Below, in pieces: positions 49,719-64,000 of a stretch of DNA of 64,000 bases (positions within the stretch are counted from its first letter, which is position 1; the number at the start of each line of letters is the position of its first letter). The notes under the pieces are model-generated. The model was not told the origin of the DNA and ran no database searches. It saw nothing but the letters and a program-made list of their open reading frames with translations. The DNA comes from Acidobacteriaceae bacterium (GTDB taxonomy: Bacteria; Acidobacteriota; Terriglobia; Terriglobales; Acidobacteriaceae), in assembly GCA_025356095.1 (NCBI GenBank), contig JANXUR010000018.1, forward strand, positions 1-64,000, read 5' to 3'. The translations under genes and the position numbers were made by a program.

Positions 49719-51011
49719 CTAGCCCCCCTGGGGCGCGACCGTCTTGATGGCAATCGCGATCGTGTCTATCGCGTGATCCATCTGACCTTTGGTGATGACA
49801 AGCGGCGGTTGCAGGCGGATGACGTTACCGTAAACACCGCCCACACCGACTAACACGCCAGCATCAAAGCAGGCTGCTTTGATAGCCTCAGCTTCCGCCG
49901 GGGCAGGAGTAGACTGGTCATCTTTTACTAGCTCAATGCCAATCATCAATCCTAAGCCACGAACGTCGCCAATCAGCGACTGCTGCGCTTGCAGTTCCCG
50001 CAGGCGATCCATGGCATAGTTGCCGGTTTCGGTAGCGCGAGCGCAGAGGTTCTCCCGCTCAATATAATTCAAATTTGCCAAGGCAGCCGCACAGCATACC
50101 GGATTGCCTCCGAAGGTGGAGAGGTGGTCACCGGGACGGAAAGCATCTGCAATTTCTGGGCGCGCCGTGAAGCCGGAAAGCGGAAACCCGTCGGCAATGC
50201 CTTTCGCCGTAACCATGATGTCTGGAGTAACACCGAAGTGCTCGATGGCGAACATCTTACCGGTGCGGGCGACGCCAGTTTGCACTTCGTCGCAGATAAA
50301 CAGAATGCCATGGCGGTCTAGCACCTGCTTGATTTCCTGAAAGTAATTCGGCGGTGGAACCAGAATACCGCCTTCACCCAAGACAGGCTCAGCAATGAAC
50401 GCAGCTACATCGCCGGCAGTGGAGTAACGTATTACATCATCCAGCATCTTTGCCCACTGGCGAGATGCTTCTTGGGGATCGTTTCGCCACGGCGACCGGT
50501 AAACATAAGGCCCCGGCAGAAAGTGGACACCGGTGACGTATGGGCCGCCGCGTCTCTTGCGTCCAGCGTTGCCAGTAACAGCCAGAGCAGTGGCAGAGCG
50601 TCCATGGAAGCTATAGTGCAGCGCAATATTTTCGTGCTTGCCAGTGTAGAGACGGGCCAATTTGAGCGCGCCTTCAATGGCCTCGGCACCACCATTGCCA
50701 AAGAACGTCTTGGACAATCCAGACGGCATCAGTTGGGCAAGCTTCTCAGCCAAGTCAGCGACAGGCGCTAAGTGGTAAAGATAGCTGCCGCAGTGGATGT
50801 ACTTATCAATTTGCGCCTTCGCGGCGGCGGCGACGTCAGGGTTCACATGCCCGGCATTTACCACCGAAATGCCAGCAAAGCAATCCAGATATTCACGACC
50901 AGCAACATTCGTGATCACGGCGCCGGAGGCCGTTGCCGGTTCGAGCGACGCCACTGACTTGACGAAGCCGGTCATCACGTAGTCACGATATTTTTGAGCA
51001 GTGCTTGCCAT
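49719..51011 (-). CDS. Class III aminotransferase, AGXT2/beta-alanine-pyruvate type
   Basis: A 430-residue PLP enzyme of class III. Motifs: FFGNGGAEAIEGALKLARLY, SFHGRSATALAVTGN, FICDEVQTGVARTGKMFA and the PLP-Lys motif DIMVTAKGIADGFPLSGF. The closing GVGGVYGNVIRLQPPLVIT is like the AGXT2 group, which uses beta-alanine, beta-aminoisobutyrate or alanine with pyruvate/glyoxylate. It would convert beta-alanine to malonate semialdehyde. MmsA, encoded 16 bases upstream, takes that product onward, so the pair makes biochemical sense. It is the last gene of the minus-strand cluster. Confidence 0.9.
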   Translation of the reverse strand: MASTAQKYRDYVMTGFVKSVASLEPATASGAVITNVAGREYLDCFAGISVVNAGHVNPDVAAAAKAQIDKYIHCGSYLYHLAPVADLAEKLAQLMPSGLSKTFFGNGGAEAIEGALKLARLYTGKHENIALHYSFHGRSATALAVTGNAGRKRRGGPYVTGVHFLPGPYVYRSPWRNDPQEASRQWAKMLDDVIRYSTAGDVAAFIAEPVLGEGGILVPPPNYFQEIKQVLDRHGILFICDEVQTGVARTGKMFAIEHFGVTPDIMVTAKGIADGFPLSGFTARPEIADAFRPGDHLSTFGGNPVCCAAALANLNYIERENLCARATETGNYAMDRLRELQAQQSLIGDVRGLGLMIGIELVKDDQSTPAPAEAEAIKAACFDAGVLVGVGGVYGNVIRLQPPLVITKGQMDHAIDTIAIAIKTVAPQGG

Positions 51012-51027: not shown

Positions 51028-52515
51028 CTAAAACTTGCGCGAGTGCTCCATTACCCACCGCTCCACTACTACTTTCTCCTGCGTGTAGAACTCAACGGCA
51101 TCACGCCCCTGCCCATGCAATACGCCGAAGAAACTGTCATTCCAGCCGCTGAATGGGAAATATGCCATTGGAGCTGCCACACCAATATTGATGCCGATAT
51201 TACCTGCGGGCGCCTCGTACCGAAACTTACGTGCAGCCGCTCCGCTCGAGGTAAACAGCGAAGCCTGATTGCCATACGGCGTACTACCTAGAATTCCCAG
51301 CGCCTCATCTATATCGCATGCGTGAACCAGACTCAGCACCGGACCAAATATTTCAGTATTCGTCAGCCTACTGTTCGCCGGGACCTCGTCCAGCACGGTA
51401 GGCGCAACAAAGTAACCGCTGCTACTCACCTGTGTCGGTTGCCGGCCATCCACCAGAATTTTCGCGCCATCGTCCTTGCCTGCGGCGATTAGTCCCTCAA
51501 TCCGCGATTGACTCTGCGGAGAAATCACTGGCCCCATTGTAGTAGTGACGTCCTGTCCAGGACCAGTGCGTATTTTGCCCGCTAGATCGAGGATCACGTC
51601 GCGAAACCGCCGTTGCGCGTCACCCACAGTTACCGCTACGGAGACTGCTAGACAACGCTGTCCGGCGCAGCCAAAAGCACTATCAGCAATAATGCGGCCC
51701 GCCGATTCCATGTCAGCGTCAGGAAGTATGACAACACAATTCTTCGCGCCTCCCTGACACTGCGCCCGCTTGCCCCGTTCAGCGGCGCGAATATACACGA
51801 GCCTCGCTACTCGAGTGGATCCCACGAAGCTAACCGCCTTCACCGCCGGGTGGTCAATGATGGCGTTTGCTGCCTCTTGACCGCCGTGCACCAGAGTCAC
51901 CACACCAGGCGGTAGCCCAATCTGTTCCATCAATTCAAATGCTCGCACCATGGTAAGTGGAACACGCTCGCTGGCCTTCAACACAAAGGTATTTCCACAA
52001 GCAATCGCATAAGGCAAGAACCAGAACGGAATCATCCCAGGGAAGTTAAAGGGAGTAATTGCTGCCACAACGCCCAGCGGCTGACGGATCATCATCTCGT
52101 CAATACCACTCGCCACATCTTCTAAGTTGTAGCCTTGCATCATGGTAGGGATGCCGCAAGCTACTTCGACATTCTCAATTGCGCGGCGAATCTCGCCGCG
52201 CGCCTCGGCCAAGGTCTTTCCATTCTCCAGCGTGATGAGCCCTGCAAGTTCATCCTGATGCGCTTCCAACAAATTCTTTAGCTTAAATAGGGGCTGAATG
52301 CGGTCTTCCGCAGGGGTGCGTCGCCATGAGGGATACGCCACGCCTGCCGCTTCGACGGCAGCGTTCACCTCATTCGCTGTGCACAGCGGGGTCTGAGCAA
52401 TGAGCTCGCCCGTGGCAGGATTGTGTACATCAAGCCAGCTACCGGTGGAAGGAGTGTGCCACCGCCCACCCACGAAGTTAGCGACTCTAATACAAGCAGG
52501 GGAAGCAGTGTTCAT
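51028..52515 (-). CDS. mmsA: CoA-acylating (methyl)malonate-semialdehyde dehydrogenase
   Basis: MmsA oxidises methylmalonate or malonate semialdehyde to propionyl- or acetyl-CoA with CO2 release. The 495-residue product has family markers: FVGGRWHTPSTGSWLDVHNP, FNFPGMIPFWFLPYAIACGN, SFVGSTRVARLVYIRAAERG, GGAKNCVVILPDADMES, and the catalytic Cys in FGCAGQRCLAVSVAV. The usual GAKNH reads GAKNC here. ATG 52515 has GGAG six bases ahead; an upstream in-frame start (52638) is not family-like. It sits upstream of the AGXT2-like aminotransferase, whose product is its expected substrate. Confidence 0.94.
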   Translation of the reverse strand: MNTASPACIRVANFVGGRWHTPSTGSWLDVHNPATGELIAQTPLCTANEVNAAVEAAGVAYPSWRRTPAEDRIQPLFKLKNLLEAHQDELAGLITLENGKTLAEARGEIRRAIENVEVACGIPTMMQGYNLEDVASGIDEMMIRQPLGVVAAITPFNFPGMIPFWFLPYAIACGNTFVLKASERVPLTMVRAFELMEQIGLPPGVVTLVHGGQEAANAIIDHPAVKAVSFVGSTRVARLVYIRAAERGKRAQCQGGAKNCVVILPDADMESAGRIIADSAFGCAGQRCLAVSVAVTVGDAQRRFRDVILDLAGKIRTGPGQDVTTTMGPVISPQSQSRIEGLIAAGKDDGAKILVDGRQPTQVSSSGYFVAPTVLDEVPANSRLTNTEIFGPVLSLVHACDIDEALGILGSTPYGNQASLFTSSGAAARKFRYEAPAGNIGINIGVAAPMAYFPFSGWNDSFFGVLHGQGRDAVEFYTQEKVVVERWVMEHSRKF

Positions 52516-52648
52516 TATTGACTCCAAAGGCAAATTCAGTACATTTTTCAGGAAGGCCAAGTCGCAGCACATAAGAGGAGGGGAGTCAGGCGCTGGTTCA
52601 CGATAGCGACTGATTGATTCCCCTCTCATCCCACGCACTCAGTTTGAA

Positions 52649-54013
52649 CTATACGATGACAAGAGGAGCATCCCTCTTAGTCTCTGAAACATGAGCGATC
52701 GCAGCCTCCATTACATCCAGTCCTTCGTGCAATTGTTCGTCGCTAAGAGTAAGCGGCATCAGCAGGCGCAAGATGTTGCCATAGCTACCGGCGCCTATCG
52801 TCACCAATCCCTTCTGATAGCACCGCTCCATAATGGCATTCGCCTCGTCCTTCGCTGGCTCCTTGGTGCGACGGTCTTTGACTAATTCGACAGCTTGCAT
52901 CGCGCCGAGTCCGCGAACATCGCCCACCATAGGAAATTGCGATTGCCATTTCTGAGCGCGATGCTGAAACACTTTCCCAATATGCTCTGCCTTCGCCAGT
53001 AGCGGCGTACGCTCGAAAATATCCATCACCGCGAGCGCTGCAGCGCAGGAGAGTGGATTGCCAGCGAAAGTCCCGCCCAGGCCGCCGACTCCGGGAGCAT
53101 CCATAATCTCTGCACGGCCGGTAACAGCGGCGAGAGGCATACCGCCACCAAGAGACTTAGCCGTAGTAATAACATCTGGTTCAATACCGTAGTGCTCGCA
53201 GGCAAACATCTTTCCAGTTCGCCCAAACCCGGATTGCACCTCATCTGCAATGAACAGAATTCCGTACTTGCGGCAGATGGCAAGCAACTCCGCAAAGAAT
53301 TCGGGCGGCGGCGCAATGAAGCCGCCTTCTCCAATTACTGGCTCAGCGATAATGGCGGCGACATTCTCCGCGGCGACCACTCGCTTAAAGGTATCTTCAA
53401 GATGATGAGCGCAGTATGCACTGCAATCTGGATATTGCTTGCCGTAGGAGCAGCGGTAACAGTAGGCGTAAGGAACGCGATACACCTCAGGGACGAAGGG
53501 ATCGAAGCCCGCTTTATAAGGATGCGTCTTACTAGTAAGCGTCATAGCCATATAAGTGCGACCATGGAATGCATCTTCAAAACAAATGATTCCCTTCCGC
53601 TTAGTAAAGGCGCGCGCCACCTTGATGGCGTTCTCTACCGCCTCGGCTCCAGTGGTAACCAGCATCGTCTTCTTAGCGAAAGCACCTGGCGTCAAAAGGT
53701 TCAGTCGCTCGCAAACTTCCACGTACCCTTCATATGCCAGCACGTTAAAACTTGTATGTAAGAACCGGTCAGCTTGCGCCTTCACTGCTGCAACCACCTC
53801 AGGAGCGCAGTGCCCAGTATTTACACTTCCAATTCCTCCCGCGAAGTCCAAAAGAACGTTGCCATCTACATCCTCCACCGCGACGCCATCAGCACGGGAA
53901 AGGAACAGCGGCGTTGAATGGAACGGGGCAATGGAGACTGCACGCTCGCGACGCTGCATGAGCGCTCGTGACCGCGGTCCAGGCATTTCAGTGCAAATTC
54001 GTATCGTGTTCAT
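52649..54013 (-). CDS. Class III aminotransferase, GABA aminotransferase-like
   Basis: A 454-residue PLP enzyme with the GabT pattern: VDGNVLLDFAGGIGSVNTGH, TGAEAVENAIKVARAFTKRK, AFHGRTYMAMTLTSKTHPYK, IADEVQSGFGRTGKMFACEH and PLP-Lys in ITTAKSLGGGMPLAAVTGR. It would move an amino group from 4-aminobutyrate (or a related omega-amino acid) to 2-oxoglutarate, giving succinate semialdehyde. A Cys-containing stretch (YCYRCSYGKQYPDCSAYCAH) is unusual and may bind metal or form a cluster-like site. ATG 54013 follows GAGG at a good distance. It lies 13 bases after the aldehyde dehydrogenase gene upstream. Confidence 0.9.
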   Translation of the reverse strand: MNTIRICTEMPGPRSRALMQRRERAVSIAPFHSTPLFLSRADGVAVEDVDGNVLLDFAGGIGSVNTGHCAPEVVAAVKAQADRFLHTSFNVLAYEGYVEVCERLNLLTPGAFAKKTMLVTTGAEAVENAIKVARAFTKRKGIICFEDAFHGRTYMAMTLTSKTHPYKAGFDPFVPEVYRVPYAYCYRCSYGKQYPDCSAYCAHHLEDTFKRVVAAENVAAIIAEPVIGEGGFIAPPPEFFAELLAICRKYGILFIADEVQSGFGRTGKMFACEHYGIEPDVITTAKSLGGGMPLAAVTGRAEIMDAPGVGGLGGTFAGNPLSCAAALAVMDIFERTPLLAKAEHIGKVFQHRAQKWQSQFPMVGDVRGLGAMQAVELVKDRRTKEPAKDEANAIMERCYQKGLVTIGAGSYGNILRLLMPLTLSDEQLHEGLDVMEAAIAHVSETKRDAPLVIV

Positions 54014-54026
54014 ACTAGACCTCGAA

Positions 54027-55487
54027 TCAATACCAACCAATAGGTTGTTCGTTGAGATTGACATGTACCTGCTTCACTTCGAGGTATTCATCCACACCGT
54101 GCGGACCAAGTTCCCGACCGAAGCCAGATTGTTTATAGCCTCCCCAAGGTGCCTCGACATATGTTGGCTGCATGTGATTCACCCACACTACACCGGCGCG
54201 CACGCCCTTAACCACACGGAAGGCCTTAAAGATGTCGCGCGTCCACACTGCTGCGGCCAGACCGTAAGGCGAATCGTTAGCGATCCGCACGGCATCCCGC
54301 TCATTCTCGAATGGAATGACAGTAGCAACCGGGCCAAATATCTCTTCCCGTGCGATTCGAGCAGAGTTATCCACGTCGTAGAAGATTGTGGGCTCCACAT
54401 AGTATCCTTTCGCAAACGCCACAGCCCGACCGCCTCCCGCAGCTAACTTCGCTTCCCTCTTACCCAGTTCCTGATAGTCGCGAACACGGTTATACTGATC
54501 TTTACTAACGAGGGGTCCCATCTTGGTTTCGCGATCCAGGGGCGACCCGAGACGAATGGTCTTTGCTTTTGCGGCCATCGCCTCTACAAACTTCGAATAA
54601 ATGGTTTTCTCAACCAAGATTCGGCTGCCCGCAGAACACACCTCACCCTGATTGATAAAAACGCCGAAGAGCGCACCGTCTATAGCATTTTCGAAGTCCG
54701 CATCTGCGAAGAAAATGTTTGGCGACTTACCGCCGAGTTCCAAGGTGACGCGCTTCAGGGTATCTGCGGCCGTCTTTACAATCATTTTGCCCACAGCAGC
54801 GCTCCCCGTGAACGCTATCTTATCTACGTCATGGTGAGCAACCAAAGGTGCTCCGGCTGCTTCGCCAAAGCCGGTAACAACATTCACCACGCCGGGTGGG
54901 AGGCCACATTCCTCAAACCACTCAGCAAGCTTCAAAAGAGTAAGTGGAGTCTGCTCAGCGGGCTTGATAACACAAGTGCAACCCGCTGCCAACGCTGGAG
55001 CCAGCTTCCATGCAGCCATGGTGAGCGGGTAGTTCCACGGGATAATTTGGCCTGCAACGCCCACTGGCTCTTTCAAGGTGAGGCTGATGGCATTATCCGG
55101 CACAGGATTTACCTGACCAGTAATTTTAGTAGCAAGTCCAGCATAGTACTCAAAGCAGGTGGCAGAGTCTGCCATATCGTACTCTGCTTCTACAATTGGC
55201 TTGCCACAGTTGCGCGCTTCCAGCTCCGCAAGGCTAGAGGACTCTGCGCGAATTTTTTCGGCAATGCGGAACAAGATACGACCCCGCTCCTGTGCGGTTG
55301 TTTCGCGCCAAGGGCCCACGTCGAAAGCGGCGCGCGCAGCCGCAACCGCAGCATCAACATCTACGGCATCTCCCGCTTGCGCATAAGCCAGAACTTCTTC
55401 CGTGGCGGGTTCAATTACAGGAAATATCTTCTGCGACGCACTGGGCACCCATTTCCCGCTGATGTACATTAAATATGTTTTCGGCAT
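54027..55487 (-). CDS. NAD(P)-dependent aldehyde dehydrogenase
   Basis: A 486-residue aldehyde dehydrogenase. Motifs: IIPWNYPLTMAAWKLAPALA (cofactor), ITELGG-type strand LELGGKSPNIFFADADFENA with the base Glu, and the nucleophile Cys in INQGEVCSAGSRILVE. Likely substrates are succinate semialdehyde, gamma-aminobutyraldehyde or 3-aminopropanal; the gene neighbourhood favours a semialdehyde or aminoaldehyde from omega-amino acids or polyamines. It is 27 bases downstream of the permease and 13 upstream of the GabT-like gene, so these are one operon. Confidence 0.92.
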   Translation of the reverse strand: MPKTYLMYISGKWVPSASQKIFPVIEPATEEVLAYAQAGDAVDVDAAVAAARAAFDVGPWRETTAQERGRILFRIAEKIRAESSSLAELEARNCGKPIVEAEYDMADSATCFEYYAGLATKITGQVNPVPDNAISLTLKEPVGVAGQIIPWNYPLTMAAWKLAPALAAGCTCVIKPAEQTPLTLLKLAEWFEECGLPPGVVNVVTGFGEAAGAPLVAHHDVDKIAFTGSAAVGKMIVKTAADTLKRVTLELGGKSPNIFFADADFENAIDGALFGVFINQGEVCSAGSRILVEKTIYSKFVEAMAAKAKTIRLGSPLDRETKMGPLVSKDQYNRVRDYQELGKREAKLAAGGGRAVAFAKGYYVEPTIFYDVDNSARIAREEIFGPVATVIPFENERDAVRIANDSPYGLAAAVWTRDIFKAFRVVKGVRAGVVWVNHMQPTYVEAPWGGYKQSGFGRELGPHGVDEYLEVKQVHVNLNEQPIGWY

Positions 55488-55514: not shown

Positions 55515-56915
55515 TTAGGCACGCGCAAGCTTACGCCGTGAATATACAAAAAAGAAAAATAATGCCAGCCCCACAAAGAACACGGTGCCGCTCACCATCT
55601 TAAGCTCGTACAAAGCGACTGACGAAACGGCTTGTGGTGGGAAAAATACTAATCCGATTCCAAGCAGGGTAGTTAAAAGTCCACTCCAGCCAGCAAGTAT
55701 GAGCGTCAGCCTGCTGTAATGACCCCGACCGTCTGGCGGTGCAGCTGCAATGCGGAGTAGCGCGGCAAAAAGATAAACAAATGGGATTAACTGAAGCACG
55801 ACGGCGAGCGACAGCATTGTCTGGAAGGCCTCGCGGACGCTCGCTCCGACAAAATACAAAATAGTAAGGACGAGGGAGAGGCCGCCGTGGACCAGCAGCG
55901 CAACATAGGGAGTGCGGTATCGGGTGTGCAATCTTCCGAGAGCCGCGGGTAGGTAGGAGTCTAACCCGGCGACGAAGGGAATGCGGGACGAACCAGCCAG
56001 CCACGCGGAGCCTATTCCCGCGATAGACAGTCCGAGCAGCACTGCGAAAGGGGCGACTATCCAAGGTACTCCCACTTCGTGCGCCATATGATTCACAGCC
56101 TGAACGATACCTTGGAGCACGCTTATATCCCGAGTGCCCACTGCGACAAGAAGCGTGAGCGTCGCGCCAATATAGAGCAGACCGGAGAGAACTCCTCCCA
56201 CCGCGACTGCACCCGGCAACGTTCGTTGTGGATCGCGAATTTCATCTCCCATAATTGATGCAAGCTCAAGACCTACTAAGCCAAAGCAGATAACACCAAA
56301 CGAGTTTAAGACGAAACGGGGGTCAGCGGGAATGGCAAAGTCCGCTACCGTGACACTGGCACCATGACGTGAAAACACAATCACGCCCAAACCGATCAGT
56401 ACTGCCGCAGCGATGCCAGTACCAATCGCGCCTATATTATTAATCCACTTACCCACGCCGAGGCCGATGATATTAAGAGCTACTAGGAGACTAAGCAGGA
56501 GAACACATGTGCATAGTGCAAACACTCTGTTGTCTGCAAGCGCTTCGTGGTTCGGCCCGAGCGCAAACACTGAAACTCCGACGAAATAGAGCAAGACTGT
56601 TGGCACATAAAGAATGTTATTGGTCCAATAACACCAACCTGAGAGAAAGCCGTGGAACTCGCCAAACAGTTCTTTTGCCCAAAGATATAGGCCGCCCTCA
56701 CCGGGATAGCGCTTACTGAGCTCGATGACTGCAATCCCTTGTGGCCAGAAAAAAAGCACCAGCGATAAAAGCCACAGCCAGATAGTTACTCCACCATTGG
56801 CCGCGATGGAAGGAACCACGTTTAAATTAAACACTGCTACAACAAATAATAAGACCAGATCGAAACGGCCCAAAGTGCGTTTGAGGTGCGGATTGTGGTG
56901 GGCAGAATGCTTCAT
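55515..56915 (-). CDS. APC-superfamily amino acid permease
   Basis: A 466-residue polytopic permease with about 12 membrane segments, from RFDLVLLFVVAVFNLNVVPS to VSGTVFFVGLALFFFFVYSR. The APC consensus is visible in the opening half (WLWLLSLVLFFWPQGIAVIE and SKRYPGEGGLYLWAKELFGE). Substrate should be an amino acid or amine; given the neighbours, beta-alanine or GABA is the best guess. ATG 56915 (MKHSAHHNPHLKR) is preferred over a TTG at 56960. It lies between the GSAM-like gene and the aldehyde dehydrogenase gene. Confidence 0.9.
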   Translation of the reverse strand: MKHSAHHNPHLKRTLGRFDLVLLFVVAVFNLNVVPSIAANGGVTIWLWLLSLVLFFWPQGIAVIELSKRYPGEGGLYLWAKELFGEFHGFLSGWCYWTNNILYVPTVLLYFVGVSVFALGPNHEALADNRVFALCTCVLLLSLLVALNIIGLGVGKWINNIGAIGTGIAAAVLIGLGVIVFSRHGASVTVADFAIPADPRFVLNSFGVICFGLVGLELASIMGDEIRDPQRTLPGAVAVGGVLSGLLYIGATLTLLVAVGTRDISVLQGIVQAVNHMAHEVGVPWIVAPFAVLLGLSIAGIGSAWLAGSSRIPFVAGLDSYLPAALGRLHTRYRTPYVALLVHGGLSLVLTILYFVGASVREAFQTMLSLAVVLQLIPFVYLFAALLRIAAAPPDGRGHYSRLTLILAGWSGLLTTLLGIGLVFFPPQAVSSVALYELKMVSGTVFFVGLALFFFFVYSRRKLARA

Positions 56916-56978
56916 GCGAGGGGTGCTATTTTCACGAACTGGCTGAAATGGGGAGCGCAATTACGCCCCCCGCGTTTG

Positions 56979-58358
56979 CTAGTGGGCCGCATATGACACA
57001 GTCATGCCGCGCTCTTGTTGCGCTTTCGCCAGCGCCGGAGCTAAGTCAGCGAATGCGGCCAGATGCATATCAATATCGGCTTCCGAGTGTTGCACGGAGA
57101 TTGTCCACTGTTCATCCCACCAGAAGGGTTGCGGCATCACCCCGCGATTTACCATGCCGAACCAATACTGCTTCCACAAATCCACATCCACCATGCGCCA
57201 TTCACGGTGGTTGCGGATTTGTTCCTTATAAAACAGAACTGCGCCATTCGCGCCAGCACCGATGGAATACGCGGTTAGTCCGGATGCTGCGATAATTCTG
57301 TTGCAGCCATTCACTAACTTGGTATTCATACTGTTAATGTGGGCATAGCCTTCTGGTGTCAACACTTGGCGGAACACCGCGAGGCCTGCGGCAATGACCG
57401 TACAGTTGGTGTTATATGTACCCGCATGAAATACCTTGCCCTGAGCAATGACATCCATCACGTCGCGGCGCCCCCCAAAGGCTGCAAGCGGAAAGCCACC
57501 ACCAATAGACTTAGCGAGGCAAATCATGTCTGGCTTAATGTTGAAGTACTCGCAGGCACCACCGCGACCAAGCTTCGCTCCAGTCTTAACCTCGTCGAAA
57601 ATCAGAAGCGCACCGTGCTTGGTGCAAAGAGCGCGTAAACCTTCGAGGAAACCCGGTTCTGGCATTACGATACCGATGTTCATCGGTACCGGCTCTACAA
57701 TCACGGCTGCAACTTCGCCTAAGTTCTCCTCGAACTGACGCTCAACTGACGCCAGATCGTTGAAGGTAGCAACCAGCGTTGCGTCGGTTTCGCCCTTAGG
57801 AATGCCCGCGCTCGCCACCACTCGATTCGGCGCTTCGATTTCGCCCCACTTTTCGGGGTCGGGCTTTACACTCACCATTACGGCACCATGAACGCCGTGA
57901 TAGCAACCTTCGAACTTGATAAGTTTCTCGCGGTCAGTAAATCCCCGGGCAACGCGAATCGCGTGCATCGTAGCTTCGGTACCGGAGTTCGAAAAGCGAA
58001 CCTGTTCGACCGGGAAGCGTGCGATGATCTCCTCTGCCAATTCACGCTCTAACTCGAACGGCATACCTAGCATGGTGCCATTTTCGAGACGGTCTTGCAC
58101 AGCCTTAACTACTGCGGGATGACAGTGCCCGGCCATGATCGCGCCGAAGCAAAGGTTGAAGTCAATGATCTCATTGCCATCCACATCCCACACGCGGCTG
58201 CCATGAGCGCGTTTGATGAACACGGGATATGGCTCATAGCTACGGAAGTTACTGGCTACTCCAAGCGGCATATAGGGCCATGCCTTGGCCAGTGCAGCCT
58301 TGGACCCTGGCGTGCGGCGTTCGAACAAATCCAATTCGTTACGTAATCCCTCGTGCAT
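56979..58358 (-). CDS. GSAM-like class III aminotransferase, beta-transaminase candidate
   Basis: A 459-residue PLP enzyme resembling glutamate-1-semialdehyde aminomutase: IDFNLCFGAIMAGHCHPAVV, VRFSNSGTEATMHAIRVARG, FEGCYHGVHGAVMVSVKP, and PLP-Lys in MICLAKSIGGGFPLAAFGG. True HemL is part of tetrapyrrole synthesis; here the gene is inside an amino acid catabolic operon and the protein is longer than HemL (about 430). GSAM-like enzymes include beta-phenylalanine aminotransferases, so a beta-amino acid substrate is a reasonable guess. Two other class III aminotransferases follow in the same operon. It lies 85 bases after the TonB-dependent receptor gene. Confidence 0.85.
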   Translation of the reverse strand: MHEGLRNELDLFERRTPGSKAALAKAWPYMPLGVASNFRSYEPYPVFIKRAHGSRVWDVDGNEIIDFNLCFGAIMAGHCHPAVVKAVQDRLENGTMLGMPFELERELAEEIIARFPVEQVRFSNSGTEATMHAIRVARGFTDREKLIKFEGCYHGVHGAVMVSVKPDPEKWGEIEAPNRVVASAGIPKGETDATLVATFNDLASVERQFEENLGEVAAVIVEPVPMNIGIVMPEPGFLEGLRALCTKHGALLIFDEVKTGAKLGRGGACEYFNIKPDMICLAKSIGGGFPLAAFGGRRDVMDVIAQGKVFHAGTYNTNCTVIAAGLAVFRQVLTPEGYAHINSMNTKLVNGCNRIIAASGLTAYSIGAGANGAVLFYKEQIRNHREWRMVDVDLWKQYWFGMVNRGVMPQPFWWDEQWTISVQHSEADIDMHLAAFADLAPALAKAQQERGMTVSYAAH

Positions 58359-58443: not shown

Positions 58444-61400
58444 CTAAAAGAATATTTTTAGAGCAAACTGAGCTAAACGCGGATCGCGCGCCCGCTTAAT
58501 TTTTCCAAAATCAGAGCCATCGCTGAAAGCGCCATCGGGGCTCTGGAACTGCGTGTGGTTAAATAGGTTAAACAGATCGGCGCGGAATTCCATACGGCGC
58601 TTGTCACCACCCCACGGAGTCGTCTTCGCGAAAGTAACATCTACGTTCTGAATACCGGGGCCGCAGCAGATGGAGCGGGGAGCATTGCCAAACGTACCCA
58701 ATGCTGGATCCACGAAGCTAGCCGCGTCGAAGTATGCGTTGCGATTGGTTCGCGGATTTAGAATCTTAAGCGGCGCAATTTGATTTGGTGTGCTAACCGG
58801 AGTAAAGAAGAAGCTGGACACAAGTTCTTGGTCGTTGGCGTCAGAGAGGCGAATTGGAAAGCCGGTTTGGACGGTCAAAATTGTGGATATTGACCAGCCA
58901 TTCAGCGCAACACCGGCTGCTCCATTGTGCTTCGGGATGGGCAAGTCCCAATACCCGTTGACTACGAAGCGGTGACGAGAATCGAAGAGCGACAAGGAGC
59001 GGGTGGCACGAGGGTTGAAAGGATTGAGTGACTCCTCGAAACTGGAGGCCTGATCAATGGACTTACTCCAAGTGTAGGCCACTTGAGCTTGCAAGCCGTG
59101 GGAAAAACGCTTCTCAAGTGAGGTTTGCAATGAGTTATAAGCGGAGTTAGCGACGGTGTCTTCCGCAAAGATATTACTCAGAACATCAACACCATCTGCT
59201 GGACAGGTGGCGGCACCGTTCAAGGGGTCGCAATTCGGAGAGGCATACGGCCGCAAGCCAACAAGAGTAACTCCGTTTGCCCCTACAACTGTGCCCTTGG
59301 CCAGCACTTGATTGTGGTTAGCATAGGGCAGATGCAAGTCGTTGGGCAGAACGGTGCCAGGAGAAATGAAGAAGGAGTTATCCGCAAAGAAAGGGCCACA
59401 AGCGAGCGACGGGTCACTAGTGGCGACAGAGATGCTCTGTAAATCGAGGCAGGTTTGCGCATTGCCGGAGTTAAGGTCATGCGAGGCGAGCAAGTGATGT
59501 GCTTGCGAACCGACAAAGCCCACCTGCAGCACCAAGTTCCGGCTCAACTCCTGCTGAAACGTGACGTTATATTGCTCTGAGTACTGCGTCTTGAGGTGCG
59601 GCTGGAATTCGCCATACAGAAGAATGGGGCGGAAAGTAGACCAGTCCACAGGCTGACCGCGTTTTGGATTCAGAATGCCGTTGAACGGATTGGGCACACT
59701 GGAGCCGCTCTGCTGCACGAAAGGCGTATTAAAGAGCGGGTTCGACAAGAAGGTGCTGCCGCCAAAGGGTGGCTCGGCGCTGAACTGCTCGAGCACTAAT
59801 TGCTCAATCGGGCTGTAGAAGATGCCGAAGCCTGCACGGATACTAGTCTTGCCGGATGCGCCTGGGCTGTAGGCAATACCGATGCGGGGTGCGAAAGCCT
59901 TATGATCAGTGCTGGTGAGTCCGGCGGGAACCCCTTTATCTCCGGGTACTACCAGTCCAGTCGGCAGATAGGGAGTACAGTCTGATGTGCCTAGTGATGC
60001 CTGACTTGCTGCCGAAAGTTGACAAGGAAAAATCGAAGAATTCTGACCGGGCCGGAACGACTGGACATGCTGGGCGGTGTCAGTAAGCGGTGTGAACAGC
60101 TCCCATCGCAGGCCGTAGTTTACGGTAATGTTGGGGCGGAACTTCCAGCTATCTTGCGCGAAAAGGCCAATTTGTTTACTGCGAACGTTTTCTACCTGCG
60201 CGGATCCCTGCGAATAAGAATCAGGCAACCCGAGCAGGTAGTTGGGATAGTTATTGGTGGATTGAACGCTGTTAGGGCCGTTACCGGTATAGCCGAAGTT
60301 GCCAGCGACGTTGAAATAGAGGGTTTGGTCGAAACGAAGTTCACGAACATCTGCACCGAACTTCATGGTGTGCTTACTTCTCACAAAAGTAAGCTCGTCA
60401 GCCAGACTATACGAGTTACCAATCTGAGGCAGCTCGCCCTCAAAATTATTGCCAATGACAAATCCCCCGGCGATGTTGATGAAGGGGACGCCTTCGCGAC
60501 CGGCACCTAGACCAGGGGTAATACCGAGTTTGGGGCTGGTGCCAAATTGCTGTTGCACGGCGGCTGAGTCGCCCGTGCCATTGAAGCAAAAGGCGGCAGC
60601 GTCTCCGGTGCAGGAGTCGGTGACCGGGGCGGTTTTCTCTGGGTGATTGAAGGTCTTTTGCGCTTCCCGCATGTACACTGCGCGAGCCTCGTTCACCAGG
60701 TTGTTGCTAATGGTCCAAGTGTGGCTGAGGTTGATTTGCTGGAAGCGATCGGCCGCTAGGCCGCCAAAACCGCTTACATTGGCACCCGCAGCTTGGAAAT
60801 TGGAGAAGGGCTGGAAAACGTCATCATCCACAAAATAGTAGTAGGCGCTCAGATTCTGGCGGTCATTGAGTTTGAAGTCCCACTTAGCGGTAAGCTGGTC
60901 GGCGCGGGTTCTACTCTTCAGCACCGCCTGATAACTGCCGTCTGAAATGTTCCCGGTGGGAACGTATCGCAACAGGTTGGCAGCCACCGGATCCTGACAC
61001 GCGGAGGGAATTTGATTGTTCGGAAAGATCTGCGCCCAAGCGACGCCAGGGGCCGGGGTAGTACCTTCTGCCGCAGAGATAGCGGCTGCACAACCGGTGC
61101 GAGTGTTTAGCACATCTGCGACTAGTTGGTCTGAGACCTGACCACCGAATGCGCCGGGGGCGCTGAAATTGTTAGAGAAATCGCCGGTACGCTCAGCGGA
61201 CGTCGGGACGGAAGTAACAGGGCCAGAGACACCTTGGCGGATGCGGCGTCCCTCATAACTCAAGAAGAAGAAGCTGCGGTTCTTAGTGATCGGCCCGCCA
61301 AAAGTGCCCCCGAATTGATTCTGGTTGAAGGGCGACTTCGAGGTATCAAAGTAGCCGCGTGAATCCAGCACAGTGTTGCGGAAGTACTCGTAGACATTGC

Positions 61401-62205
61401 CGTGAAATTGATTGGTGCCGGACTTAGTCACTACGTTAACAACAGCGCCAGAGCTACGGCCATATTCCGCATCGAAGGTATTCGTAAGTACGCGAAATTC
61501 TTCAATTGCGTCGGGGCTGGGCTGCACGGTGGGCAGGTTGGCGAACTGATCATTGGCGTCGCCACCATTCACGCTAAAGTTATTGCCACGGCCGCGGCCT
61601 CCGTTTACGGATACAGCTCCCGCGCGGTCACTGCCATAGTAAAGGTCCGTTCCGGTAGTGGATTGTACCCCGGGCTGCAACGAGAGTAGCTGATAGGCGT
61701 CGCGGGCGTTGAGAGGTAATTCTGAAACGGCACGCGAGTTCACGATGGCGCCAAGCTGGGTACTGGAGGTATCTACCAACGGAGCTTCGGAGGTGACGTC
61801 CACAACCTCTTGCGCGGCGCCGAGTTGCAGTACCATATTCAACGCCAGTGCTTGATTCAGCTCGAGCTGCACACCGCGGCGGACGTTCTTCTTAAAACCA
61901 GCGAGGTCAAACTCTAAACGGTAGAGTCCGACGGGGATGGCGGGAAAGGCGTAGTCGCCTGAGGCATCGGTTTGGGCGGAGCGGGCGACGCCGCTTTCTT
62001 CATTCACCAGCGTGACCTTGACACCGGGAACCACCGCACTGGTGGGGTCGGTTACTCGGCCAAAGATGCGGCCGCCAGTGCTTTGTGCAAGAACTGGAGT
62101 GGCAAGATTCAACACAAGATTCAACACAATGCCCAGCAGAATCACGGAGCGTGCGATGAAGCCGAAAGCCTTAAGAGCGGCGAAACGATCCGACAACACA
62201 GCCAT
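58444..62205 (-). CDS. TonB-dependent receptor with carboxypeptidase-regulatory-like domain (Oar-like)
   Basis: A 1253-residue outer-membrane protein. After the signal region (ARSVILLGIVLNLVLNLATP) comes a Cna-B/carboxypeptidase-regulatory-like domain (IFGRVTDPTSAVVPGVKVTL). The plug follows, starting near LVDTSSTQLGAIVNSRAVSE, and then a large beta-barrel (SGTNQFHGNVYEYFRNTVLD; TVNYGLRWELFTPLTD). The end RLAQFALKIFF has the terminal Phe of outer-membrane barrels. ATG 62205 has GGGAGG five bases ahead; ATG 62217 is not needed. It is the first gene of the catabolic cluster and should import its peptide or amino acid substrate (inference). Transcription starts from a promoter with a shared operator. 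Confidence 0.93.
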   Translation of the reverse strand: MAVLSDRFAALKAFGFIARSVILLGIVLNLVLNLATPVLAQSTGGRIFGRVTDPTSAVVPGVKVTLVNEESGVARSAQTDASGDYAFPAIPVGLYRLEFDLAGFKKNVRRGVQLELNQALALNMVLQLGAAQEVVDVTSEAPLVDTSSTQLGAIVNSRAVSELPLNARDAYQLLSLQPGVQSTTGTDLYYGSDRAGAVSVNGGRGRGNNFSVNGGDANDQFANLPTVQPSPDAIEEFRVLTNTFDAEYGRSSGAVVNVVTKSGTNQFHGNVYEYFRNTVLDSRGYFDTSKSPFNQNQFGGTFGGPITKNRSFFFLSYEGRRIRQGVSGPVTSVPTSAERTGDFSNNFSAPGAFGGQVSDQLVADVLNTRTGCAAAISAAEGTTPAPGVAWAQIFPNNQIPSACQDPVAANLLRYVPTGNISDGSYQAVLKSRTRADQLTAKWDFKLNDRQNLSAYYYFVDDDVFQPFSNFQAAGANVSGFGGLAADRFQQINLSHTWTISNNLVNEARAVYMREAQKTFNHPEKTAPVTDSCTGDAAAFCFNGTGDSAAVQQQFGTSPKLGITPGLGAGREGVPFINIAGGFVIGNNFEGELPQIGNSYSLADELTFVRSKHTMKFGADVRELRFDQTLYFNVAGNFGYTGNGPNSVQSTNNYPNYLLGLPDSYSQGSAQVENVRSKQIGLFAQDSWKFRPNITVNYGLRWELFTPLTDTAQHVQSFRPGQNSSIFPCQLSAASQASLGTSDCTPYLPTGLVVPGDKGVPAGLTSTDHKAFAPRIGIAYSPGASGKTSIRAGFGIFYSPIEQLVLEQFSAEPPFGGSTFLSNPLFNTPFVQQSGSSVPNPFNGILNPKRGQPVDWSTFRPILLYGEFQPHLKTQYSEQYNVTFQQELSRNLVLQVGFVGSQAHHLLASHDLNSGNAQTCLDLQSISVATSDPSLACGPFFADNSFFISPGTVLPNDLHLPYANHNQVLAKGTVVGANGVTLVGLRPYASPNCDPLNGAATCPADGVDVLSNIFAEDTVANSAYNSLQTSLEKRFSHGLQAQVAYTWSKSIDQASSFEESLNPFNPRATRSLSLFDSRHRFVVNGYWDLPIPKHNGAAGVALNGWSISTILTVQTGFPIRLSDANDQELVSSFFFTPVSTPNQIAPLKILNPRTNRNAYFDAASFVDPALGTFGNAPRSICCGPGIQNVDVTFAKTTPWGGDKRRMEFRADLFNLFNHTQFQSPDGAFSDGSDFGKIKRARDPRLAQFALKIFF

Positions 62206-62250
62206 GCAACCTCCCATAGAAATGAGGAAAATCAGTTTTCCGGATCGTGC

Positions 62251-62278
62251 TTGACGCCGGAAAGAACCTTGCTATAAT
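62251..62278 (+). promoter_or_regulatory. Promoter of the MerR-XRE-cupin regulator gene
   Basis: TTGACG (62251-62256) and a perfect TATAAT (62273-62278) are 16 bases apart. Transcription would start near 62285, 79 bases before ATG 62364. The -10 box is in the spacer of the inverted repeat at 62265-62289. A second short repeat, TTTCCGG (62237-62243) / CCGGAAA (62257-62263), flanks the -35 box. Confidence 0.65.
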
Positions 62279-62289
62279 TCCGCAAGGTT
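62265..62289. promoter_or_regulatory. Operator: perfect inverted repeat AACCTTGC-N9-GCAAGGTT
   Basis: AACCTTGC (62265-62272) and GCAAGGTT (62282-62289) are exact inverse copies around TATAATTCC, which contains the plus-strand -10 box. The right arm overlaps the -10 box of the minus-strand promoter. A dimer bound here would block both divergent promoters, giving autoregulation and control of the receptor operon. The regulator encoded 75 bases away is the natural binder (inference). Confidence 0.7.
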
Positions 62290-62313
62290 AGAGAATGCGG
62301 GCAACGATGTCAA
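62285..62313 (-). promoter_or_regulatory. Promoter of the TonB receptor-aminotransferase operon
   Basis: On the minus strand a perfect TTGACA (62313-62308) is followed, after 17 bases, by TAACCT (62290-62285). The -10 box matches at three of six positions, which suits a regulated promoter. It overlaps the right half of the operator. Transcription would start near 62278, about 73 bases before ATG 62205. Confidence 0.55.
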
Positions 62314-62363: not shown

Positions 62364-63194
62364 ATGAGACAGCAGAGTTCTTCCAACCCGCCGACCGAGG
62401 AGTTGCTGAAGATTGGCGAGGTGGCGCGTCTGGTTGGAGTTTCACCTTCCATCATGCGAGCTTGGGAGCGGCTGGGGCTGATCCGGCCTCGGCGCACGGA
62501 TAACGGGTATCGCAAGTATGCGCGGAGTGACGTCCAGTTGCTGAAGCGGGCTCGCTACTTGCGGCGCGAACGAGGCCTGAATGCGCCAGCAATCGCGGAG
62601 GTGCTGAAGAGTGCTGGGAGAGGTGCAGGACTTCCCGCAACCGCGCCCAATGAAGGCGCGTCGCGGGTGATTGGAGCGCGGCTACGGCGGCTGCGACTGG
62701 CCCGCAAGCTGGCGCTGGTGGAAGTGGCCAAAGCGGTGGGCATCTCGGTTGGCTTTTTGAGCGGCATTGAGCGATCACAAATGAGCGCGTCGGTGGCGAC
62801 GTTGCGTAAGCTGGCGCGGTTCTACAAGACCAGCATCCTCGATTTTTTCGAACCGCAGGGGGAGAATCCTCACCTCGTCCGGGCAGGCGAGCGCAAGGTG
62901 CTGGATGCGGGTCAGGGGGTAAAAATGGAGCTGCTGGCCTGGGGCAAAGCTGTGATGGAGCCGCACCTGTTCCGCATCGCACCAAAGGCAGGCAGCGGAG
63001 AAGCTTATACGCATGAAGGCGAGGAATTTCTCCACGTACTGGCGGGCGCACTCACGATTTCACTGGAGGGACGCGACTACTTGTTGCGACATGGGGACAG
63101 CCTGTATTTCGACAGCAACATTCCGCACCGCTGGGTGAATCCAGGACTGAAAGAAGCGGCAGTTTTGTGGATTAATACCCCGCCGACGTTTTAG
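62364..63194 (+). CDS. Double-HTH regulator: MerR domain + XRE domain + cupin
   Basis: A 276-residue regulator with three parts. Residues 15-84 form a MerR winged HTH (LKIGEVARLVGVSPSIMRAW; LIRPRRTDNGYRKYA). Residues 104-158 form a Cro/C1 (XRE) HTH (LALVEVAKAVGISVGFLSGI, then SASVATLRKLARFY). Residues 195-272 form a cupin ligand domain (AYTHEGEEFLHVLAGAL, His217 and Glu219/Glu221; PHRWVNPG, His255). XRE-cupin proteins include PuuR, which controls polyamine-to-GABA breakdown. An added MerR HTH is uncommon. The MerR coiled coil that normally dimerises is replaced by the XRE-cupin part. The gene is divergent from the receptor-aminotransferase operon, and the intergenic region has a perfect palindrome. 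Confidence 0.92.
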   Translation: MRQQSSSNPPTEELLKIGEVARLVGVSPSIMRAWERLGLIRPRRTDNGYRKYARSDVQLLKRARYLRRERGLNAPAIAEVLKSAGRGAGLPATAPNEGASRVIGARLRRLRLARKLALVEVAKAVGISVGFLSGIERSQMSASVATLRKLARFYKTSILDFFEPQGENPHLVRAGERKVLDAGQGVKMELLAWGKAVMEPHLFRIAPKAGSGEAYTHEGEEFLHVLAGALTISLEGRDYLLRHGDSLYFDSNIPHRWVNPGLKEAAVLWINTPPTF

Positions 63195-63218: not shown

Positions 63219-64000
63219 ATGATGACGGCAACTGTAAGGACGGCGGCGCTGGCCGCACTGTTAATTTCCACATGGAGCGTTTCGCGAGCTCAGACCTCAG
63301 CCGATCTGGTTATTACCCATGCGCGCATCTTTACCGAAAACGCTGCTGCACCCTGGGCCGAGGCGATGGCGGTGCAAAATGGTCGCATTGTCGCGGTGGG
63401 CAGCGAAGTACAGGTTGCGGCCTTCCGCAAGAACGCTAAGAAGGTGGTGGACGCGCAAGGCAAACTGGTGCTGCCCGGCTTCCATGACGCGCACATCCAC
63501 TTTATGGAAGGCTCGGTGAGCCTGAATGGCGTGGGTCTGGACGGCGCGAAATCGCTCGCCGAAGTGCAACGGCTGGTAAAGGAGTATGCGGCGGCGCACC
63601 CCAAGGCGGCGTGGATTTTGGGGCGGGGGTGGAGCTACGACATCTTTGGCGAAGCGGCGCTGCCCAAACGCCAGATGCTTGACCTGGTGGTGGCCGACCG
63701 GCCCGTGTACTTGGAAGGCTACGACGGCCACACTGCATGGGTGAACAGCAAAGCACTGGAGTTGGCGGGGGTAACGAAGTCCACGCCTGACCCGGCCAAT
63801 GGAACAATCGTGCGCGACGCCAACGGCGAAGCAACCGGCGCGTTGAAGGAAGCCGCCCAGGATGTAGTGGGCGCGCACACTCCTGAGCTGACGAGGCCGG
63901 AGCGCCTGGCCGCGCTGCGCGCGGGGCTGCGCCATGCCAGCGCCAACGGACTGACACGAGTGCGCAGCGCAGGTAGTGACTTTGAATATCTTGATTTGTT
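63219..64000 (+). CDS. Exported YtcJ-like amidohydrolase (partial)
   Basis: The gene runs off the window end; 260 complete codons are seen. A signal peptide (ALAALLISTWSVSRAQ) is followed by the amidohydrolase-family N-terminal strand domain (ADLVITHARIFTENA, AMAVQNGRIVAVG, KLVLPGFHDAHIHFMEGS). HIH in GFHDAHIHF is the first metal-ligand pair. The region DRPVYLEGYDGHTAWVNSKA is typical of YtcJ/N-substituted formamide deformylase-type proteins. GGAGAG lies about five bases before ATG 63219. The substrate would be an amide or N-acyl compound. It is 24 bases from the regulator stop, so the two are probably cotranscribed. Confidence 0.88.
   Translation, partial: MMTATVRTAALAALLISTWSVSRAQTSADLVITHARIFTENAAAPWAEAMAVQNGRIVAVGSEVQVAAFRKNAKKVVDAQGKLVLPGFHDAHIHFMEGSVSLNGVGLDGAKSLAEVQRLVKEYAAAHPKAAWILGRGWSYDIFGEAALPKRQMLDLVVADRPVYLEGYDGHTAWVNSKALELAGVTKSTPDPANGTIVRDANGEATGALKEAAQDVVGAHTPELTRPERLAALRAGLRHASANGLTRVRSAGSDFEYLDL

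Follow-up and report, generated by a model that had tools for sequence, protein, structure and literature searches.

A MerR-XRE-cupin fusion regulator beside a putative omega-amino-acid operon in an Acidobacteriaceae bacterium represents a widespread family

Introduction

How might two unlike DNA-binding heads of one chain share a single operator? The question is raised by a gene near the end of the stretch analyzed here (the window), positions 1 to 64,000 of contig JANXUR010000018.1 from an Acidobacteriaceae bacterium, whose product joins a MerR helix-turn-helix (HTH), an XRE HTH, and a cupin:

62364..63194, + strand: MerR-XRE-cupin transcriptional regulator, 276 amino acids (aa), ATG start (Pfam, AlphaFold2)

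Our analysis indicates that this regulator, ordinary in size, is a variant of the XRE-cupin kind, from an uncharacterized but widespread family. Judging from sequence, we consider it reasonably probable that the protein is a local, autoregulated, PuuR/PauR-like repressor of an operon for uptake and catabolism of omega-amino acids (GABA and probably beta-alanine). The predicted operator is probably read via the MerR head, with a pathway metabolite sensed by the cupin; both binding and effector are inferred.

Results

All three domains exceed their Pfam cut-offs, which bears out the first-pass annotation of a single chain with two HTHs and a cupin as well as the domain borders that it gave. MerR_1 spans aa 16-83 (PF13411, 65.5 bits against a cut-off of 21.6; PF00376, 51.9 bits), HTH_3/XRE spans aa 107-160 (49.8 bits, cut-off 23), and Cupin_2 lies C-terminal to HTH_3 at aa 202-270 (68 bits, cut-off 27.2). 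The NCBIfam PuuR model NF007408 matches aa 102-276 up to the last position of the model, and the score of 78.2 bits, under the equivalog cut-off of 211, places the protein outside the PuuR equivalogs. Among relatives, alignment reveals an almost invariant NTPPTF at the C terminus of the fusion proteins. The His/Glu ligands of the cupin, initially described as intact, are so only in part: H217, E221, and H255 are invariant in 36/36 sequences, whereas the canonical HxH motif has Tyr215 in place of its first His in 33/36. Three of the four ligands of an HxH...E...H metal cupin are present, and three-ligand metal binding is possible.

An AlphaFold2 model, generated with an input alignment of 30 relatives, has three confident domains (mean pLDDT, 86.5) and a linker at aa 89-96 with pLDDT of <50; the pTM of 0.46 means that confidence holds for each domain and not for relative domain placement. 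The MerR helices stop at aa 83, a poorly ordered linker follows, and the next helix is that of the XRE domain; no long C-terminal MerR dimerization helix is present between the two domains in the model. Foldseek and VIA-align searches with the whole model matched mostly the cupin, and none of the PDB chains among the structure and profile matches listed spans all three domains. An assembly, sequencing, or frameshift artifact was considered and ruled out, as the open reading frame is intact and relatives in several phyla are conserved end to end, at full length, with 34-67% identity.

The fusion is common, contrary to the rarity implied at first. Within the window's family, 36 of 120 genomes contain full-length relatives (38 matches in total, 2 of them partial), as do 14 of 396 genomes of its phylum, 5 of 299 Pseudomonadota genomes, and 4 of 249 Bacillota genomes; in the Desulfotignum phylum, none of the 148 genomes sampled has one at the cut-off used. 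Full-length relatives also occur in 122 plasmid records, mostly rhizobial, and an actinomycete (Actinomycetota) member is carried by an Embleya plasmid; annotated plasmid copies bear the bare name "MerR family transcriptional regulator." Common as the fusion is, no paper on a MerR-XRE-cupin protein was found in a literature search that covered mainly open-access papers. The family is old, widespread across phyla, and apparently unstudied. Rhizobium leguminosarum has a "gabDTR" cluster (PMC6421345) that may include a fusion relative; none was seen in the pRL10 stretches examined.

To place the fusions among XRE-cupins, a tree was generated from the XRE-cupin part alone of 30 fusions and 34 plain XRE-cupins. 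All 30 fusions cluster together (96/96) and exclude 33 of the 34 plain proteins. The exception, L037, is a plain XRE-cupin without a MerR domain, weakly placed on a long branch inside the fusion group. Because the fusions group together, a single old fusion event, perhaps with rare loss, is likely and is the simplest reading of these sequences. Recent or recurrent fusion is disfavored by the same grouping, L037 aside. In one proteobacterial member (L078, 9547-11436, + strand), a fourth, C-terminal domain is found, Pro_racemase (PF05544, aa 315-627), and this chain thus unites a regulator with a proline/hydroxyproline epimerase-like enzyme.

Divergent from the regulator, seven close-set minus-strand genes form an apparent operon, and an amidohydrolase gene follows the regulator on its own strand:

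58444..62217, - strand: TonB-dependent-receptor-like outer-membrane protein with a CarboxypepD_reg domain, operon gene 1
56979..58358, - strand: class III aminotransferase (glutamate-1-semialdehyde aminomutase subfamily/GntE-like)
55515..56960, - strand: APC amino-acid permease; best NCBIfam matches are GadC-type antiporters, below cut-off
54027..55487, - strand: aldehyde dehydrogenase (SSADH/aminobutyraldehyde/betaine-aldehyde dehydrogenase-like)
52649..54064, - strand: GABA transaminase GabT (TIGR00700, 554 bits, cut-off 507)
51028..52638, - strand: (methyl)malonate-semialdehyde dehydrogenase family (TIGR01722, 539 bits, cut-off 449)
49719..51011, - strand: class III aminotransferase, final gene of the apparent operon
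63219..64000, + strand: Amidohydro_3 amidohydrolase, starting 24 bp 3' of the regulator; it crosses the window end and has 577 aa in the contig

The operon gene set plausibly suits uptake and breakdown of omega-amino acids (GABA, beta-alanine), a substrate class suggested by gene content. The linkage to class III aminotransferases raised in the first-pass annotation recurs elsewhere. GabT homologues lie within ~9 kb at 18 of 30 other fusion loci, in further Acidobacteriota families and in alphaproteobacteria including rhizobia, compared with 0 of 12 plain XRE-cupin control loci, the control flanks being somewhat shorter than those of the fusion loci. The commonest recurring neighbor of the fusion gene is gabT. 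In rhizobia, the genes divergent from the fusion gene are gabT or gabT-gabD, and Sinorhizobium meliloti has the latter pair. No GabT was detected in the neighborhood of Bacillota, Actinomycetota, or Etf-linked alphaproteobacterial members, and the effector therefore probably differs between clades.

Other neighborhoods are varied. Some Acidobacteriota fusion members adjoin a sodium:solute symporter gene. In two Bacillota loci (L079 and L081), the fusion gene is followed by amidohydrolase and isochorismatase-fold hydrolase genes and by UbiX/UbiD decarboxylase-like genes; the isochorismatase-fold and UbiX/UbiD assignments were made by eye. A second rhizobial subgroup, represented by L084 and L088 on Shinella and Sinorhizobium plasmids, has electron-transfer-flavoprotein and folD/purU-type one-carbon genes in its neighborhood in place of gabT, which suggests a different substrate.

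The 146-bp intergenic region between the regulator and the operon contains three predicted elements:

62265..62289, unstranded: predicted operator, a perfect 25-bp palindrome, AACCTTGC-TATAATTCC-GCAAGGTT (i.e., AACCTTGC-N9-GCAAGGTT)
62251..62278, + strand: predicted sigma-70 promoter driving the regulator gene, TTGACG-N16-TATAAT, its -10 preceded by TG and contained in the operator
62285..62313, - strand: predicted divergent promoter, TTGACA-N17-TAACCT; the -10 overlaps the operator right arm; present in 14/15 family loci

A specific site had been anticipated between 62220 and 62320, where the predicted palindrome indeed lies. A long or composite site serving both HTHs had also been suggested; what we find is one conserved 25-bp palindrome, with no sign of a further conserved motif of another kind. 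Of 15 family loci, counting that of the window, 13 have both arms exact; of the other two, one has a single mismatch and one is without the right arm. The regulators of the family loci compared are 59-67% identical to that of the window, and part of the palindrome conservation is that of the promoter itself (TG-n-TATAAT). In the family member L110, a natural half-site variant, the operator has lost its right arm and the divergent promoter its TTGACA -35, although the divergent receptor gene is kept. The regulator promoter has 11 of 12 consensus matches, with 0.2 promoter-like sites expected in the region, and spacers across the family loci are of normal length, mostly 16-17 bp on the plus strand and 17-18 bp on the minus strand.

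Genome scans with the palindrome point to a local site. In the window's own genome, the predicted operator is the sole copy free of mismatches. The zero-mismatch copy is unique in six of seven genomes searched, the best site of the seventh being its single-mismatch one, and two-mismatch matches are about as numerous as those of a reversed-pattern control. A regulon of many sites was rejected, there being no second zero-mismatch copy in the seven genomes.

The upstream regions of 28 fusion loci from outside the window's family were examined for the core CTTGC-N9-GCAAG, which had been derived from that family. The core is enriched there, with a combined p of 0.0025 that is approximate since the loci are related, while the same core at gaps of 7, 8, 10, and 11 gives p near 1, and 34 plain XRE-cupin control loci give p = 0.87. 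The strongest loci in this cross-phylum test are mostly alphaproteobacteria and hence not independent, and the motif is absent in several distant fusion clades. Exact copies sit in regulator-gabT intergenic regions of alphaproteobacteria. An unbiased dyad scan recovered TTGCA-N7-TGCAA, which shares its axis with the core, at 8 of 23 loci versus 0.3 expected; poly-A and A/T-rich dyads also ranked high. At four loci (L075, L073, L077, and L076), two TTGCA-N7-TGYA(A/G) sites precede gabT at a spacing, read from the sequence, of 31-33 bp, as if two dimers could occupy one helix face. Two Desulfotignum plain XRE-cupin controls (L003 and L012) each have a 9/10 match to CTTGC-N9-GCAAG about 305 bases upstream (p = 0.007 each), possibly by chance or as the site of another regulator.

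Discussion

Since each of the two -10 elements coincides with part of the palindrome, a regulator bound at this site should block both promoters. In the mechanism that we propose, a homodimer held by the XRE-cupin part would place its MerR heads on the palindrome, and RNA polymerase would be blocked in both directions. The cupin pocket would then take up GABA or an intermediate of the pathway, either an omega-amino acid or the corresponding semialdehyde, and the protein would be released from DNA, upon which both operons would be expressed. The XRE head may add contacts, provide cooperativity, or merely form the dimer interface. A GABA-pathway-responsive repressor is favored because of the -10 overlap, the lack of MerR-activator features, and the behavior of characterized XRE-cupins: in P. 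aeruginosa all eight act as repressors, in most cases on genes next to their own, and putrescine makes PuuR leave DNA (PMC7901475).

The other readings differ in what the MerR head does and in what is sensed. MerR activators have operators within spacers of 19-20 bp and dimerize via a long helix. A regulator of this type, with the MerR head remodeling the divergent promoter to activate the catabolic operon and the XRE part repressing, could account for a divergent promoter that has a perfect -35 (TTGACA) and a weak -10 (TAACCT) and so could need help, and the palindrome arms presumably look like MerR-family operators. However, the spacers are mostly 16-18 bp (17-18 bp for the divergent promoter), the operator coincides with the two -10 elements instead of lying in a spacer, and the AlphaFold2 model is without the dimerization helix, in addition to the repressor character of known XRE-cupins (PMC7901475). 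We therefore regard an activator or dual regulator as improbable, and the switch between MerR-style activation and repression suggested in the first-pass annotation appears, as far as the model and promoter predictions go, not to apply. Ordinary XRE-cupins bind palindromes beside their own genes (PMC7901475), and the XRE HTH of the window protein is intact by Pfam, so that the XRE head might read the site, leaving MerR as an accessory or protein-interaction module. Against this, the motif is lacking at plain XRE-cupin loci, and the alphaproteobacterial XRE domain diverges from the window's more than the MerR domain does, although the operator arms are kept. The missing motif at plain loci, together with a MerR domain that is somewhat better conserved than XRE in most cross-clade comparisons, favors the MerR head as the reader, and we hold reading by the XRE head to be rather unlikely. 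A composite repressor under ligand control, with two HTH types of different DNA specificity, in which MerR heads occupy the palindrome while XRE heads contact another or a central site or link tandem operators (for example, the pairs 31-33 bp apart before alphaproteobacterial gabT), is a speculative reading to which we give limited credence; if true, it would be unlike any characterized MerR or XRE-cupin protein.

The substrate is a separate matter. The gene set, with its outer-membrane importer, its three class III aminotransferases, and the downstream amidohydrolase, suggests a broader range than GABA, and other clades pair the regulator with an amidohydrolase plus an isochorismatase-fold hydrolase, with ETF, or with a fused proline racemase. 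The operon may thus serve another amine or amino acid (polyamine, ureide, guanidino compound, or D-/N-acyl amino acid), with GABA a mere intermediate and not the effector. Yet gabT is the most recurrent neighbor, and the rhizobial divergent genes are gabT or gabT-gabD; we see this alternative as possible, if on the unlikely side. A repressor responsive to the GABA pathway remains our preferred reading.

The database label "MerR family" masks a distinct, old regulator family with a predictable function, for which operator, operon, and ligand class are predicted specifically enough for laboratory test. The family offers a candidate GABA regulator for rhizobia and Acidobacteriota; rhizobial gabT is reportedly induced by GABA.

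Compared with known systems, the regulator resembles PuuR/PauR-type XRE-cupin repressors in the order of its XRE HTH and Cupin_2 domains, the latter aligning with the PuuR C-terminal end, in a (here predicted) palindrome next to its own gene, and in its amine/GABA-pathway targets. It differs from them in the additional N-terminal MerR winged HTH, and the fusions form their own clade apart from all sampled plain XRE-cupins but one. The XRE-cupin part finds its best match, by structure and by profile, in 1y9q, the solved structure of a Vibrio cholerae HTH_3 family XRE-cupin, which is without the MerR domain. With MerR-family regulators (HspR, CueR, SoxR, CarH, and GlnR/TnrA), it shares the winged HTH with MerR_1/MerR Pfam matches, and its palindrome, with CTTG/CAAG arms, presumably resembles HspR and CueR sites; unlike them, it has in the model no long C-terminal dimerization helix, its predicted operator lies on the -10, and a cupin is the presumed sensor. 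The GABA regulators known as GabR, whether MocR-type (Bacillus subtilis), sigma-54-dependent (B. thuringiensis), or PucR-type (Corynebacterium), likewise control GABA transaminase genes, but all three belong to protein families wholly different from that of the MerR-XRE-cupin regulator.
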